64,000 bases of DNA from Zingiber officinale. Lineage: Eukaryota; Streptophyta; Magnoliopsida; Zingiberales; Zingiberaceae. Below, piece after piece: positions 13,686 to 20,935 of the stretch. The stretch's first letter is position 1; every line of letters begins with the position of its first letter. The notes beneath the pieces were generated by a model. The model made no database searches. It was not told the origin of the DNA and was given only the letters and a program-made list of their open reading frames with translations. Position numbers and translations under genes: made by a program. The DNA lies in contig NC_055988.1 in NCBI RefSeq assembly GCF_018446385.1, positions 164,064,209 through 164,128,208 on the forward strand, read 5' to 3'.

Positions 13686-13726
13686 TGATTCGGTGATAAG
13701 GGCCCACTCCTCAGGGGTCATGGTCA
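13686..13726 (+). repeat. Ty3/gypsy-type solo LTR, left end
   Basis: Starts TGATTCGGTGATAAGGGC right after the 5-bp duplication GATAA (13681-13685). It continues at 20159 beyond the MULE insertion. The last ten bases (GTCATGGTCA, 13717-13726) are the left MULE target duplication. Confidence 0.65.
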
Positions 13727-14460
13727 ACGTCGAATCCTTTGTCCCGAAGATGCCTCTGTCCCCGTGTCCCATTCAGAAAACGACAAAAAAACGTGTCAAA
13801 CACGTGCTTTTGCTCCTTCGCTCTCTGTGCCGTGTAAACACTCGCCGAAGCCTGCTTTTCTCCAGAAAGCAACTCCAAAGCTGTGCCCTAACCCAAACTC
13901 CAACCGACCCCTTTGCTTCTGCAGTCGCCGTCGGGCTCGACGATAGCCATCTCCATCCCCTCCCCAACTCCAGCGGCCCGCGACGCCCTAAAACCTTTCC
14001 TCCCCAGCAACTCCAACAGCCATCCCGACCCCGCTGTTTCCGTCGTCGCATTCGGACTCGACGACAGCCCTCTCTGTCCCCTCCCCAACTCCAGCAGCCC
14101 GGCGTCTACCTTTCCTCCCCAGCAACTCCAGCAGCCATCTCGGCGACTCTAGCAACTCCGGCTTCCCCTCCCTTCGTCGACTCTAGCAGGTATGTATCTC
14201 CCTTCGTGGTCCTCAAAAGTTTTAAACTTTTTACAACCTTTTATTAGCTATCTCTACCACTTCACAGAGCATAATTCTACATGATTCAAATCCAATAATA
14301 GTTAGTTAGTCTAATCAAATCCTTGCCTTTTGTTAATTTTTTTAGCATCAAAATGATCATGACTCTTGCACAAATATGTGGTGATCTTTCAAGTTTTAGA
14401 AATGGTTATCTAATAAATGATTAATTTCAAAAAAATATTCTTATATAATATCGAGGTGAC
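13727..14460 (+). repeat. MULE 1 left terminal inverted repeat
   Basis: Its outer part is GC-rich and holds an internal tandem duplication of about 120 bp: the block from near 13926 (GGGCTCGACGATAGCC) is repeated from near 14044 (GGACTCGACGACAGCC), each ending in a CCCCAGCAACTCCA(A/G)CAGCC motif. The inner part is AT-rich. The open frame at 13693-14247 reflects this composition and is mirrored in the other arm. Confidence 0.85.
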
Positions 14461-14837
14461 AAACAACAAAAGGAGTGCAAAACAATTTCTTATGCTTCTA
14501 TAACAATATTAATCTAGTAGAAGATACCGCCTAAACCACTTAATGGAAATCCCTGGTGACACGTAATGATGATTATATTTATACATTATGACAACTAATT
14601 TTCTACCTACATTATCCACAATCATACTTAATATAAGCAGCATAATATAGAAGTTGATTGTCATTCCATTTCAGATGCTAACACATCCTACAAGAATAGC
14701 ACCTAGCAAATCTCCATGGCGTTTATTGACACATTCATATGTGAATCACAATAACGACTAAAATCACATAGGCTACCTTGACAAAATTCTCTAGATACTC
14801 TTGTAATGTATGGTTGGTACAAATAGATTTTATTGTA

Positions 14838-14957
14838 ATCAATCATACAAGCTGGAGACTAGTCCCACCTCCATTCACTACATAGAAGCCGAGCCGCCAG
14901 GCCTCACAGATGTTGAGGTTGGCAAAGAATATGAAGTTATTTTTAGCAATTTTGCAG
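14838..14957 (+). pseudogene. Captured GH3 (acyl-acid amido synthetase) exon fragment
   Basis: Inside MULE 1 a short plus-strand frame encodes EAEPPGLTDVEVGKEYEV followed by IFSNFAG, then a splice donor GCAG/GTATCA at 14957/14958. As I recall it, this matches the GH3 family region just before the conserved YRYRLGDVV motif, closest in style to the jasmonate-conjugating JAR1 branch (PxGLTxVxxGEEYE, TNFAG). GH3 enzymes couple jasmonate or auxin to amino acids using ATP. Only this fragment is present, with no adenylation motifs, so it is a transduplicated piece of a host gene (Pack-MULE style). The preceding residues YKLETSPTSI may be captured sequence too. Confidence 0.55.
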
Positions 14958-15745
14958 GTATCATTTTTCATCTGCACATCCTGTTTGCTATTTCCAATTT
15001 TCTTTCGTCGTTTCTTCTTTGTCCGTCTACTAGTCAACTTCCTGCAAATTTTGTCATTCTGAACTTTTCTTTAGATACAAATACATAAGCCTGTAAATGC
15101 ATCAATCATAGTATGGCAAGTTTGATTCTTCACCAATCTTGCATCATCAGACTATTTATTAAAAAGCAGAGTCAAATTTGGTGACAAATTTGATGGTTTT
15201 AGACTAGGTAATCTGGAAAAGGATTCAACGACACTTTCAATCAAGTTTGATTGATTAGCAAACCTCCCAACCTCTCGTTCTATTTACAGAAAAGCAGAGT
15301 CAAATTTGGCTATTGAATTACAATAGCAACAAGAGTATGGTTGATTTAACCAATATAATATAGATATGATTTAACCAAAACAAGGAGCATGCTCTTTGTA
15401 TATATAGGTTAGCTCATGTTGTAGAATTTTTTAATGTTTGTTGTTGATTTTCTAATGATTGTCATTGATTTTATGAAATGCAGTTTTTATTTTATGTATT
15501 GCTTAGATTCATAAGTATAATTTATATGTTATGAATGCTTGATTTAATCATTTAGTGATAGTGAAAATTATGTTGATATCACTTTCAGGCGAGTAAATGC
15601 ATAAAAATGTATGATTGTTGCTACTTTCAGTGAAGTTTATCAAATTTTTCATAAAAATGTGTGATTTTTTATTACTTATCTAAATTGTTATTGTTTAGTT
15701 TAATTTTATCGAATATAACTTTTTTGAGTATTAGGTTGCTATTGA

Positions 15746-16117
15746 ATGACATCATCAAGTAACAGCAGCATTAACCATACCAAATTTGAAAATGTACGAT
15801 GCAGGGATTGTGGACTAAATGCATTGGTGCTAGTCTCTAGATCAATCAAGAACCCAGGAAGATTATATTATGGATGTAAGCAGCATGGATGGTTAAAGTG
15901 GGTGAGATATGATGCTGTACTAAATGAAGATACCAGTGATATACATTTTAGGATGTTGTCAAGAGTGGAGTCAAGGATAGGAAGGGAACACATTACTTAT
16001 CTTGGACATAATATGGGAAATTGGAATATACCGCATATGATCTGGATATTAGTAATAGTAAACTTAATTCTTTTGGTTGTATATTTGTTTTGTTTGTTAG
16101 TTGGTCTGGTTAAGTAG
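15746..16117 (+). CDS. Small zf-GRF / membrane-anchored ORF inside MULE 1
   Basis: A single 123-residue frame. Residues 17-53 resemble a GRF-type zinc finger (VRCRDCGLNALVLVSRS, then NPGRLYYGC and WLKWV). The Cys at 19, 22 and 44 are present, but the usual fourth Cys before the WV end is replaced (KQHGWLKWV). Residues 97-119 form one hydrophobic helix (WILVIVNLILLVVYLFCLLV), so the product would be a C-terminally membrane-anchored protein. GRF fingers bind nucleic acid in nucleases and topoisomerases. In plants short GRF proteins with a C-terminal membrane helix are common, often in transposon-rich DNA. It is transcribed toward the transposase gene. It may be a passenger gene or an accessory gene of the element. 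No function is assigned. Confidence 0.5.
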   Translation: MTSSSNSSINHTKFENVRCRDCGLNALVLVSRSIKNPGRLYYGCKQHGWLKWVRYDAVLNEDTSDIHFRMLSRVESRIGREHITYLGHNMGNWNIPHMIWILVIVNLILLVVYLFCLLVGLVK

Positions 16118-18000
16118 TGCTAGTGATGTAATGTATAATTATGAATGATGTTGACATTTTTATTATTTTTTTTGTTTATGAATGTATATTAATTATGTAT
16201 CATTACTTCAGTTAGTTTTATATATCAGCAAATGATGTCAACATTTGTAAGTGATGAGATTTGTTCCGTATATGCATTTGTAACAATCTTAAGATTTGTT
16301 TCCTTAATATTCGAGAATGAACTAAAATATTGTTGTTTTTTTTGCCCATCTTCTTTTCTGCGTTGTTACAGTTAAATCTCTCATCTCTGCTGAGATGATG
16401 TAAGTGCCAATTTTTATATGCAACAATTGTGTGTTGTTACAAATTTCTTCTCATTTTATTTCTACCTAAATTTCTTCACGTCCTTATTTACTTAAAATAC
16501 TTGCCATGGAGATTGTACTCATGATAGGAAAACAACTTGCAACTCTGTAAGTCTCTAAGAAAACCAGACTACAACATAGCAGATAACACCAATCCCAATC
16601 AATCCCCAGAAGCCACAGCTCCTTTTTAAATACATGAATCTGCATAACACTCACTAAACCAAATATTTTGTAAGAAAACCCCAGCTACATCAAATATTCA
16701 AATTACACCAACATTTCCACCGACAAAGAAGCTCCACCGAAACACTAGCTTATCTCTAGAAACGAAAACCACACTCACAGAAATTTCTCCATTTTCAAGC
16801 AAAATCAAACATGTGCATAAGAAACTAGCTCCCAGATTTGTAATGATACACACCAAAGAGAATGCCCATATGAAAGCCAGCAGCAATCATCAACGATACG
16901 AGATCACTCCCAACGGAGAAACCCAGAGTGAATAATGATTCCCCCCAACACCTTTCTACAAACAGAGCAAACCTTCATAAAAAGTAAACTCATAGAAACA
17001 ATCTCCCAACCAGCACTAAAACCCAGAAACTACCATGATTCCAGATTTTCTAAAAAATCACTAAACATCAATTCAAACATCACTGTGCACAGCGCAAATA
17101 CAATATTGCATGAATATCACAGGAAGACGAGCTCCATAAGAAACTCACACATAATGATCACACAAAAGAAGAGAACACCAGAAAATCAGTGAATATATTC
17201 CTCCCATATCCAAATAAAACATTTCATAAAGGTCCAAAATGAGAAGAAAACAAACTAGGAATCAGACAAAACCACAGAGTCCTCCAGCAAGCATAGTGAA
17301 CCTACACAGAAAAAGAAGACCAGCAAAAACTAGCCAGGTTTACAAGATATGGTAACCACAAAAGTTCCACAAAATATGCAACACATGAGTTTTGAGGAGC
17401 TTGCTTCATTACATATTTGTTTGCATTCCATTGTAACTTGATGCCGACGATGCCTATATTGACATCAGTCACTCTTTGTGGTGTTCTTTAGTTGATGTGC
17501 ATTCCATTGTAGCAACATCCACACCATTGAAGCACCTGGAGAGAAAAAAAAACAAGTAAAGCCATGTAAGTCTACTAAAAATGGCAGATGCTACTAAAAC
17601 TCTTATCAAATATCATATATATAACATGAAAAGATACTAGAACTAGTGAAGTTTGATAAGCAGCGCATACTATACTATCACAATATTAGTGATGGCATAT
17701 TATTATCCTCATGTGCAATGTGCAAGTCTACTAAAAATGGCAGATAGAAATTTAACTCACCCTCTCATGTGCATGTATACTAGAAATAAAGTAACGATAG
17801 ACAAATTGCTATCAATTTGCCAGATTTCAAACTGTGCTAACAAGGTGTTAACAATAAATGTTTAAAACATGGTTAAAAATGGTACAACAATGGTGTAAAC
17901 ATGGTTAAAAAGCATACTGATACAACAAATTTAATCTTATGACAAATGGTTAAAAAAACAACAATGATGTAAACATGGTTAATTTCTTACCATCCTTCCC
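16118..18000. other. MULE 1 interior without a recognisable gene
   Basis: Mixed sequence. A 22-bp word (AAGTCTACTAAAAATGGCAG...) occurs at about 17571 and 17725. Degenerate repeats of the form ACATGGTTAAAAA occur at 17865-17985. Open frames here are short and low-complexity. It could be captured host sequence, but I recognise none. Confidence 0.4.
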
Positions 18001-19153
18001 GATTATTTGTCTGAAAATAATCATTATCAGAGTGAACCTGAGATAGTTGTGTTGACAAAAGTGGTGGAAATTGAGTTTCAGCAATACTCAAACCTTCAAC
18101 ACAGCTATAGTTTGTAAGCTAAAACAATAAAATATAGTTTTAGATAGTGATAACAATAAACCTTCAACACAGCTATACTCAAAAGTGGTGGATTGCTTGT
18201 GATGATTAACACCTATAAACAACGCAATTGGGCGACCTTCATTATTCTTCCTGTAGGTTGTGTCAAAGCAAACAACATCTTCAAAATATCCATAATCAGC
18301 TCTTATCTTAGCGTCACACCAAAAAATATTAGTTATCAAATCATCTTCATCAACTTGAATAGCATAAAAAAATTGGGATCATCGAACTGCATTTTCTGCA
18401 AAAACTCCAATACACCTTCTGTATCACCAACTCTCATATTTCTTGTTCTTTTGGATTGCAAGTAGTTTTTATAATCTTCAAGAATAAAACCTAAATTCTC
18501 TCTCCCACCTACTTGTCTCACCATAAGATCATGAGATGCTTAGGGGGGATTCCCACATCACTTGATATCTCAATCTGTATCGCCACAGAAGAAGATATAT
18601 TCCTATGACATCTATAGATGTGAGTTTTGTTTGGACTTGAAAGATAATGATTATGCTCTTTAACAAATTGCTCCACAGTCAAGTTGCCATTATTTCGACA
18701 ACTAATCTTCATTTTAGCCTCACAACCAAATCTTGTTTCAGGACGACTTGATTTCACATAAACATCTCATTTGTCTTTTCCCCTTTTACCTTGTGCACTA
18801 CAACAAAAAATTCTGTCAACTAATTTACCCGATTTATCATTGTGGCTTTTGCACCTTCTTACACCAAATCCAACTTGTTTAGCATATTTCAAATAAAATT
18901 CATAGGCTTCCTCTTTTGTCTTAAATTCCATACCGATTTTTGGTATCAATTCTTCTATGATAGATTGGTCAGAACTCATCAATAACATGGTAGAGTCCAT
19001 ATCCTCATTAATAACATCAAACTCATCATTCTGACAGTCTTGGTTTACATCAAAACTCAACCTACGACAACTTGTAGATTCAACCAACGACAACTCCATG
19101 ATAATTACAATTAGGCATGAAAAAAAACAACCAACCAAGAAATGTATATTCAT
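18001..19153 (-). pseudogene. FAR1-type MULE transposase, truncated and frameshifted
   Basis: The start is probably the ATG at 19099 (MELSLVESTSC) or 19153. The first block encodes a FAR1 DNA-binding domain (GMEFKTKEEAYEFYLKYAK, GVRRCKSHNDK). A stop near 18765, a frameshift near 18520 and another near 18360 interrupt it. Recognisable pieces are FGCEAKMKIS, FVKEHNHYLSSP and the start of the MULE catalytic domain (VVCFDTTYRKNNEGRP, FIGVNHHKQ) with the first Asp of the catalytic triad near 18260. After about 18190 the expected second Asp, Glu and SWIM finger are missing; instead a 20-bp word (AACCTTCAACACAGCTATA) is repeated about 70 bp apart and an unrelated tail follows. The element could not move itself. 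Confidence 0.75.
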
Positions 19154-19414
19154 TATATTAGGTGCAAAAAGAACTCATGTAGTACCAAGAAAATGAACTG
19201 GAGCAACCACCAAAGCTTATTAGGTGATGTGTTTGGCTGAAATGATCTAATTACAGTCCATTAAGCCATGTTTAATCAATTTAACAATCCCTAAACCTCT
19301 AAAGCGCTTGGGTAGCATTTAAGGATAAAGGAATGCAGTAGCAATGCAACAGCAACATATTAAAATTTCCCACAACAAACTATCTAAACAGCAACAATTA
19401 AAATTGGAACTGCA

Positions 19415-20148
19415 GTCACCTCGATATTATATAAGAATATTTTTTGAAATTAATCATTCATTGGATAACCATTTCTAAAACTTGAAAGATCACCACATAT
19501 TTGTGCAAGAGCCATGATCATTCTGATGCTAAAGAAATTAACAAAATGCAAGGATTTGATTAGACTAACTAACTATTATTGGATTTGAATCATGTAGAAT
19601 TATGCTCTGTGAAGTGGTAGAGATAGCTAATAAAAGGTTGTAAAAAGTTTAAAACTTTTGAGGACCACGAAGGGAGATACATACCTGCTGGAGTTGACGA
19701 AGGGAGGGGAAGCCGGAGCTGCTGGAGTCACCGAGATGGCTGCTGGAGTTGCTGGGGAGGAAAGGTAGACGCCGGGCTGCTGGAGTTGGGGAGGGGACGG
19801 AGAGGGCTGTCGTCGAGTCCGAATACGACGGCGGAAGCAGCGGGGTAGGGATGGCTGCTGGAGTTGCTGGGGAGGAAAGGTTTTAGGGCGTCGCGGGCCG
19901 CTGAAGTTGGGGAGGGGATGGAGATGGCTGTCGTCCAGCCCGACGGCGACGGCGGAAGCAAAGGGGTCGGCTGGAGTTTGGGTTAGGGCACAACTTTGGA
20001 GTTGCTTTTGGGAGAAAAGCAGGCTTCGGCGAGTGTTTACACGACACAGAGAGCGAAGGAGCAAAAGCACGTGTTTGGCACATTTTTTTGTCATTTTCTG
20101 AATGGGACACGGGGACAGAGGCATCTTCGAGATAGAGGATCCGAACTC
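19415..20148 (-). repeat. MULE 1 right terminal inverted repeat
   Basis: Inverted copy of 13727-14460, equal in length at 734 bp, with about 12 differences in the outer 245 bp compared by eye. Confidence 0.87.
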
Positions 20149-20935
20149 GTCATGGTCACGGTGGAAGTCCAAGTCTAAGCGGTCAACATCCATGTGTCGC
20201 TGGCTAGTCGGACAACTCACTCGCCCGACCGGGACAAAGAAGTACCAATCAGATATCACCACAGCTCGGCTAGGCATCGAGCTTCCGACGCTCAAAGCAA
20301 GATATACGTCGAGCAGCTAGCTCGCTCGGACTTACATCGAACCTCGGGAGCCGGTGAATAAAGATCACAGTGCAATGGAATGTCAGCCGAGCGACCACTC
20401 CACTTGGTCGGCTGGTCGAGCAGCTATCTCGCTCGGCCCACTTACAGACAAAAGGAGGATCAGCCGATATCCTCGTGGGAACTCGCACCACCGACAGACG
20501 GCATGGTTGGCGGCATGGACAGGCAAAGGATCGTACGATAAAAGTTTTCACTGTCATGTCAGAGATATGCCCGGGTCATTGAGGTATGGTACCAGGGACG
20601 CTTTCCTAACATGTCTTTTCAAAAAAAACTTTGAGAAGCGTGCATGTCTCGAGAAGCGTGCACGCGCTTCCTCGGAGCCTTATATAAATAGCTCTAAGCT
20701 TCGACGGAGGTATGCACACTTTACTGTAGCTACTGTTACTCTGCTTCTTTGCTTTTCTCGCTTATACACCGCCGGAGATTGACTTGAGCGTCGGAGGGTT
20801 GTCGTCGAGAAACCCCTCCCTGGCTCGGTACTGACGCTGCTGTGGTTGCAGGTTCCTTCAACTCGGAGTCCGTCAACAATCAACAGGAGTGCCACGTCTC
20901 CCAGCATCCATCGTTTCGACTCCTGGACAGAATTA
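20149..20935 (+). repeat. Ty3/gypsy-type solo LTR, main part
   Basis: Continues 13686-13726 after the MULE and its duplicated GTCATGGTCA. It ends ...GGACAGAATTA at 20935, directly followed by GATAA (20936-20940), the same 5 bp found before the left end, so the whole is an ~818-bp solo LTR with a perfect 5-bp duplication. It is GC-rich with repeated GCTCGG words. It has a promoter-like TATA box (TATATAAATA, 20681-20690) about two thirds along, as in plant gypsy LTRs. The open frames here are not genes. Assignment to gypsy rather than copia rests on style, since no polyprotein is attached. Confidence 0.7.
20681..20690 (+). promoter_or_regulatory. TATA box of the solo LTR
   Basis: TATATAAATA in a GC-rich setting, positioned where an LTR pol II promoter would start the R region. 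Confidence 0.5.

Follow-up and report, generated by a model that had tools for sequence, protein, structure and literature searches.

A Mutator-like element (MULE) occupies positions 13726-20148 of a 64,000-nucleotide stretch of the ginger genome (Zingiber officinale, contig NC_055988.1, positions 164,064,209 to 164,128,208 of the forward strand), which we call the window and in whose numbering coordinates are given. The element is a defective member of a two-gene family, with an internal deletion: beside the remains of a FAR1-type transposase gene it carries an open reading frame (ORF) of 123 codons, which is no one-off capture but a second gene found across the family. The two genes, and the parts of the second, lie as follows.

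15746..16117, plus strand: second gene, the 123-codon ORF, with a GRF-like zinc ribbon (putative ligands C19, C22, C44 and H47) and a C-terminal membrane helix
15797..15904, plus strand: GRF-like zinc ribbon, residues 18-53, scoring below the Pfam cut-off
16025..16111, plus strand: predicted transmembrane helix, residues 94-122
18181..19099, minus strand: FAR1-type transposase remains, residues 1-307 of 778, with stops and frame breaks

We searched the genome (3.09 Gb, 211 contigs) for siblings by the inverted repeat of the element, without use of the ORF. Scoring 40 of 126 candidates gave at least 65 matches, and 22 stretches (L009-L030) around the better matches were examined; the family is larger than this sample. 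Coverage was counted over 16 siblings, omitting L017, L020 and L021, whose stretches stop short of the ORF side, and L023, a partial stretch. The pairs L018/L019 and L024/L025 were each counted as one insertion-interrupted element because 9 bases are common to the two outer flanks of a pair (by eye); each pair probably represents one element with nested insertions. The first pair (G000:C20:22977023-23011985) is stretched to ~35 kb and the second (G000:C10:95016858-95037071) to ~20 kb. Terminal inverted repeats (TIRs) of siblings matched those of the window at 72-95% (longer matches), and the ORF and transposase blocks at ~90-98%.

An earlier reading of the letters of this stretch (the original prediction) had proposed asking whether the ORF recurs in the same place in sibling elements, and it does: its DNA lies there in 14 of the 16 siblings, and also in L023, where an insertion splits the ORF. 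The ORF is open in eight of these 15 (L009, L010, L011, L019, L025, L026, L028, and L030) and damaged in seven, by stops (L013, L014), a frame shift (L015, L022), partial deletion (L012), the insertion in L023, or a changed start region (L029). L030 is the sibling with both genes open, a 778-codon transposase and the 123-codon ORF. In the copies in which both genes were read, their order and orientation are those of the window, and the second gene is convergent to the transposase gene, as mudrB is in MuDR. This recurrence rules out a one-off capture of the ORF and, together with the GRF family match, a chance ORF. That the ORF is a transduplicated host piece, placed once in a single element, had been offered as an alternative; the recurrence refutes it, leaving it hardly credible for the ORF, and it is nearly true of a GH3 exon fragment in the same element, a host piece found in few copies and shared, in part, by only two of the 16 siblings.

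Coverage was scored against the window sequence, so that segments special to the window are low by design; on this count it reached 13-14 siblings over 15602-16160 (the ORF with 144 bp ahead of it and 43 bp behind it) and 14-15 over 18180-19187, where the transposase block lies, compared with 9-10 over 15351-15601 and 9-11 over 16161-16549, the neighbours of the ORF block, and 3-5 over 16550-17341. Mean coverage was 13.5 over the ORF, 14.8 over 18180-19099 and 6.2 over 16160-17340; the 500 bp preceding the ORF averaged 9.4, a figure that takes in 104 bp of the window's own captured segment, and the 500 bp following it averaged 9.3. Much of the remaining sequence is swapped but the coding modules are retained, which is our strongest evidence for the ORF being part of the element; we take such retention as the main sign that the ORF may be in use. 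Five other ORFs in 16484-17487 gave a single library match (E = 0.12), below its cut-off.

The ORF proved as clean as had been noted and runs tail to tail with the transposase gene. Its C-terminal membrane helix also held up (hydropathy 3.24 over 19 residues), and in the predicted structure (mean predicted local distance difference test score, pLDDT, 51.7) helix 94-122 is confident and strands 25-33, 36-44, and 49-53 are of low confidence. The GRF-like finger stood as well, at a sub-cut-off score, but not the missing Cys ligand that had been described with it: the fourth ligand is probably His47, replacing Cys instead of being absent. The motif C19-x2-C22 ... GC44-x2-H47-GWLKW fits the familiar GRF pattern by eye, with His standing in for the fourth Cys. 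All eight aligned copies retain C44 and H47, and all eight match the GRF zinc finger family (PF06839) with E-values of 1 or less, the best being 0.0018. Decayed copies show further losses: C19 and C44 in L013, and C22 in L014. Matches of the ORF to solved structures by phmmer (a CAAX protease, E = 0.07-0.14; a nitrite reductase, E = 1) were not meaningful, and NCBIfam returned a single match, at E = 0.42, and none for the GH3 piece.

The broken transposase of the original prediction was recovered as FAR1 pieces, stops, and frame breaks on the minus strand. Pfam found two FAR1 pieces above the cut-off and a MULE piece that scored 27.0 bits, just short of its cut-off (27.6); relative to an open protein of 778 residues, the window keeps residues 1-307, split into three pieces and interrupted by two stops, and residues 308-778 are gone. 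Relatives (L015, L030) encode a protein with FAR1, MULE, and SWIM domains in that order, the arrangement of FAR1-type (Jittery-like) transposases, and the MULE transposase domain (PF10551) is matched at E = 2.3e-29 in L030 and 5.7e-29 in L015. A 778-codon frame open from Met is present in L029 and L030, the other compared copies having stops or breaks. The piece absent from the window measures ~1.5 kb in L009 and L010 and belongs at 18155/18180. The window has a scar there that contains a 20-nt repeat of sequence lying 68 bp away; scars of this kind can result from abortive (interrupted) gap repair. Two further blocks retained among the siblings (17386-17599 in all 16, 17911-18155 in 15) hold probable 3′ exons of the transposase gene.

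18156..18179, no strand: deletion scar of the ~1.5-kb internal deletion, holding the 20-nt repeat of 18090-18109
17386..17540, minus strand: probable last transposase exon, after CAG (by eye), covered in 16 of 16 siblings; splicing predicted from sequence
17986..18120, minus strand: probable internal 3′ transposase exon, bounded by AG and GT (by eye), covered in 15 of 16 siblings; splicing likewise predicted

In MuDR, each TIR provides a promoter and first exon to the gene that it faces, and mudrB assists insertion of the element. The ginger TIRs contain a donor-like motif, CAG/GT(A/C/T)TG, whose GT is kept in 24 of 28 matching rows (some TIRs gave none); the window copy is the following.

14187..14195, plus strand: splice-donor-like CAG/GTATGT inside the TIR, candidate end of a shared first exon if used in splicing

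By analogy with MuDR, each TIR would supply the promoter and first exon for the gene facing it. The second gene would encode a small tail-anchored protein whose zinc ribbon is built from C19, C22, C44, and H47, and this protein may assist transposition; it might, for instance, tether the transposase or the cut ends to a membrane, the nuclear envelope being one candidate. Because GRF ribbons of other proteins bind single-stranded DNA, we think an accessory role in transposition the most likely of the readings considered, at a little below an even chance. The fuller proposal, that the FAR1-type MULEs of ginger encode a zinc-ribbon protein, tail-anchored and able to bind single-stranded DNA, that acts with the transposase at a membrane (e.g., the nuclear envelope) during cutting or re-insertion, is unlikely; we know of no membrane-tethered accessory factor for any Mutator-like element. 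The mudrB-like placement of the second gene had been noted and is seen here in its same-place recurrence and in L030 with both genes open, and a mudrB-like role may go with it. Another function for the second gene, for instance in countering silencing as VANC does for Arabidopsis VANDAL elements, seems to us quite improbable: extra MULE genes can have such a role, according to two papers (PMC5735166, PMC10398659), but a membrane helix and small size would not suggest a sequence-specific DNA binder.

Close behind the accessory role we rank an ancient passenger, that is, a host GRF-membrane gene that the ancestor of the family acquired in a single capture and that has since travelled with the element without contributing to transposition, in a young family with many copies still open; we regard this as a serious possibility, and the retention of the ORF block while adjacent non-coding sequence was replaced among subfamilies speaks against it. 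Several observations weigh against the accessory role. The ORF is wanting in L016 and L027, and the coverage contrast owes something to the scoring against the window described above. For PF06839, the window ORF reaches 18.6 bits (E = 0.002) and that of L030 18.7 bits, both under the curated cut-off of 25.9, and two of the eight aligned copies have each lost a ligand (C19 in L009, C22 in L028). In 11 of 12 copies (the exception being L010) the ORF is farther than its flanks from the nearest copy, which favors a passenger, as does the capture of host DNA by the same family in the GH3 case. Purifying selection on the ORF, proposed earlier as something to check, was not shown, the non-synonymous to synonymous ratio (pN/pS) being indistinguishable from 1: pN/pS was 0.67 (95% interval 0.32-1.49) among the eight open A/B copies, 0.99 (0.44-3.05) between subfamilies when A/B copies were compared with L030, and 0.94 (0.44-2.62) when they were compared with L030 and L014. 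Stops in all 12 aligned copies numbered two against 4.7 expected (P = 0.16), a deficit that is not significant.

By pairwise comparison, nine copies of the ORF gave a pN/pS of 0.735 (bootstrap 0.41-1.53), and twelve copies gave 0.78; values of 0.67-0.74 are not distinctive, since wrong frames and flanks scatter between 0.73 and 2.07 by the same count. For the transposase, pN/pS was 0.45 (0.32-0.65) between L018, L011, and L022 on one side and L029 and L030 on the other, and 0.81 (0.55-1.24) within L018, L011, and L022. Purifying constraint is shown for the transposase and not for the ORF, a contrast that favors the passenger reading; the ORF tests have low power because the copies examined are ~95% alike. 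In nine copies of the ORF, 23 private changes were non-synonymous and 13 were synonymous (neutral ratio 3.0; P = 0.09), and stops were absent against 3.1 expected (P = 0.04), these nine having been picked for full flanks, which omits L015 and both L013 and L014, which have stops. All 12 aligned copies gave 37 non-synonymous and 18 synonymous private changes (P = 0.085), and the lack of stops is not usable as evidence once all 12 are counted. A majority-base count (nine copies: 38 non-synonymous and 19 synonymous changes against a neutral ratio of 3.29; no stops against ~5) was rejected because shared changes are counted repeatedly. Purifying selection was dropped as proof of ORF function, since four analyses fail to show constraint.

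A GH3-like exon ending at a splice donor, also noted originally, is present in a segment of its own.

14885..14957, plus strand: GH3 (JAR1-like) exon fragment of 25 residues, with donor GT at 14958-14959; a local capture
14842..15349, plus strand: segment holding the GH3 exon, in place of which six aligned siblings have ~320 bp of other sequence

The junction reads G/GT at 14957/14958 (by eye), and the piece matches Pfam GH3_M at E = 0.0019, below the cut-off, and JAR1 by phmmer at E = 0.0015. The segment is common to the window and L011: coverage by the 16 siblings is zero over 14842-14899, one (L011) over 14900-14949, two (L011 and the C10 element) over 14950-15052, and four over 15053-15320. 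To judge from this distribution, the GH3 exon is apparently a later host capture limited to a small subfamily and separate from the ORF. Subfamily C (L029:5134-5444, L030:3085-3378) has a repetitive reading frame rich in proline and arginine between the two genes, without counterpart in the window, which is possibly another local acquisition.

The element had been placed at 13727-20148 with inverted repeats of 734 bp; this placement needed only small corrections, to a start at 13726 and TIRs of ~735 bp. The ends and the 9-bp target-site duplication (TSD) were set by eye, by lining up symmetrical 12-base ends on the printed flanks.

13717..13725, no strand: left copy of the TSD, 9 bp, GTCATGGTC, read by eye
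13726..14460, plus strand: left TIR, ~735 bp, with sub-repeats spaced ~115-121 bp
19415..20148, minus strand: right TIR, from repeat comparison within the window
20149..20157, no strand: right copy of the TSD, 9 bp, GTCATGGTC, read by eye

The inverted repeat spans 705 nt at 95% identity (13730-14434 and 19440-20144), and a perfect 31-nt inverted pair extends it inwards to 14460 and 19415; sub-repeats spaced 115-121 bp lie inside the TIRs at 13904-14101 and 19773-19970. A script returned the 10-base word GTCATGGTCA as common to both flanks, which we took as the 9-bp TSD GTCATGGTC. Thirteen elements have both of their ends in a single locus, and in 12 of them (all but L026) the two sides share a flanking word of 8-11 bases, so that the family has the long TIRs and 8-11-bp TSDs of MULEs. 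No empty insertion site for the joined flanks was present in the window or in L009-L030. Miniature derivatives of ~470-500 bp (C1:5066733-5067207, C1:5026813-5027284, and C4:144579113-144579609) have as ends roughly the outer 130-157 TIR bases in inverted orientation. The left flanks of L020 (C4:96088182) and L021 (C3:110487936) are nearly identical on two contigs, hinting at an allelic or duplicated insertion and at possible homology between contigs C3 and C4.

MULEs with extra ORFs are already known, among them those with mudrB, mutB, and vanB/vanC (listed in the text of PMC6446971), and the reverse ORFR of Abermu is a known convergent extra MULE ORF (as described in PMC9168764). Among the matches listed, the open literature gave no FAR1-type MULE whose extra gene encodes a GRF-like membrane protein, and 'GRF zinc finger' together with 'transposase' returned only a wheat quantitative trait locus paper (PMC7729826); 'GRF' is absent from the main texts of PMC6446971 and PMC8599713, and neither 'GRF' nor 'transmembrane' occurs in the main text of the Abermu paper (PMC9168764). 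The roles of extra MULE genes (mudrB, ORFR, vanB) are unknown or partly known. The part of the extra gene in transposition is directly testable in this family, because the protein is small and recognisable, siblings differ in the ORF, and at least one copy has both genes open. Furthermore, FAR1-type transposases are the source of FHY3/FAR1, which makes a resident partner gene of interest for the origin of these regulators.

GRF-type zinc ribbons occur in APE2, NEIL3, and TOP3A and in small plant proteins like At4g04775. The ginger ORF shares with them the C-x2-C ... GR.YYGC ... W pattern, and with the plant ones short length and a C-terminal helix; unlike them, it is transposon-encoded, scores below the Pfam cut-off, and probably has His47 as fourth ligand. 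With Jittery-like and other FAR1-bearing MULEs, and the derived FAR1/FHY3 genes, the family shares the FAR1 DNA-binding domain, MULE domain, and SWIM finger in order, a likeness based on domain order; Jittery, however, is described with a single gene in the text of PMC9168764, whereas the ginger family has a second gene throughout. Like Pack-MULEs, the window element holds a host gene piece (the JAR1-like GH3 exon ending at its splice site), but Pack-MULEs are usually small and non-autonomous, as the same text states (PMC9168764), whereas members of the ginger family encode their own transposase, broken in the window copy. MuDR of maize resembles the family in its long TIRs, ~9-bp TSD, and two opposed genes, transposase and extra (as the texts of PMC9168764 and PMC6446971 describe it), and differs from it in that the ginger transposase is FAR1-type and the extra protein has a GRF-like ribbon and membrane helix, mudrB being set apart by its description. 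Type II Abermu of barley and other plants, as the text of PMC9168764 presents it, is likewise a large element with a 9-bp TSD for most listed copies and an extra ORFR opposite to the transposase, between it and a TIR; its transposase was identified by similarity to MURA, unlike that of the ginger family, the comparison being by description only. The extra ORF of Abermu is, like that of the ginger family, loosely constrained and fast-evolving, with Ka/Ks of 0.39-0.56 reported in that text (PMC9168764).

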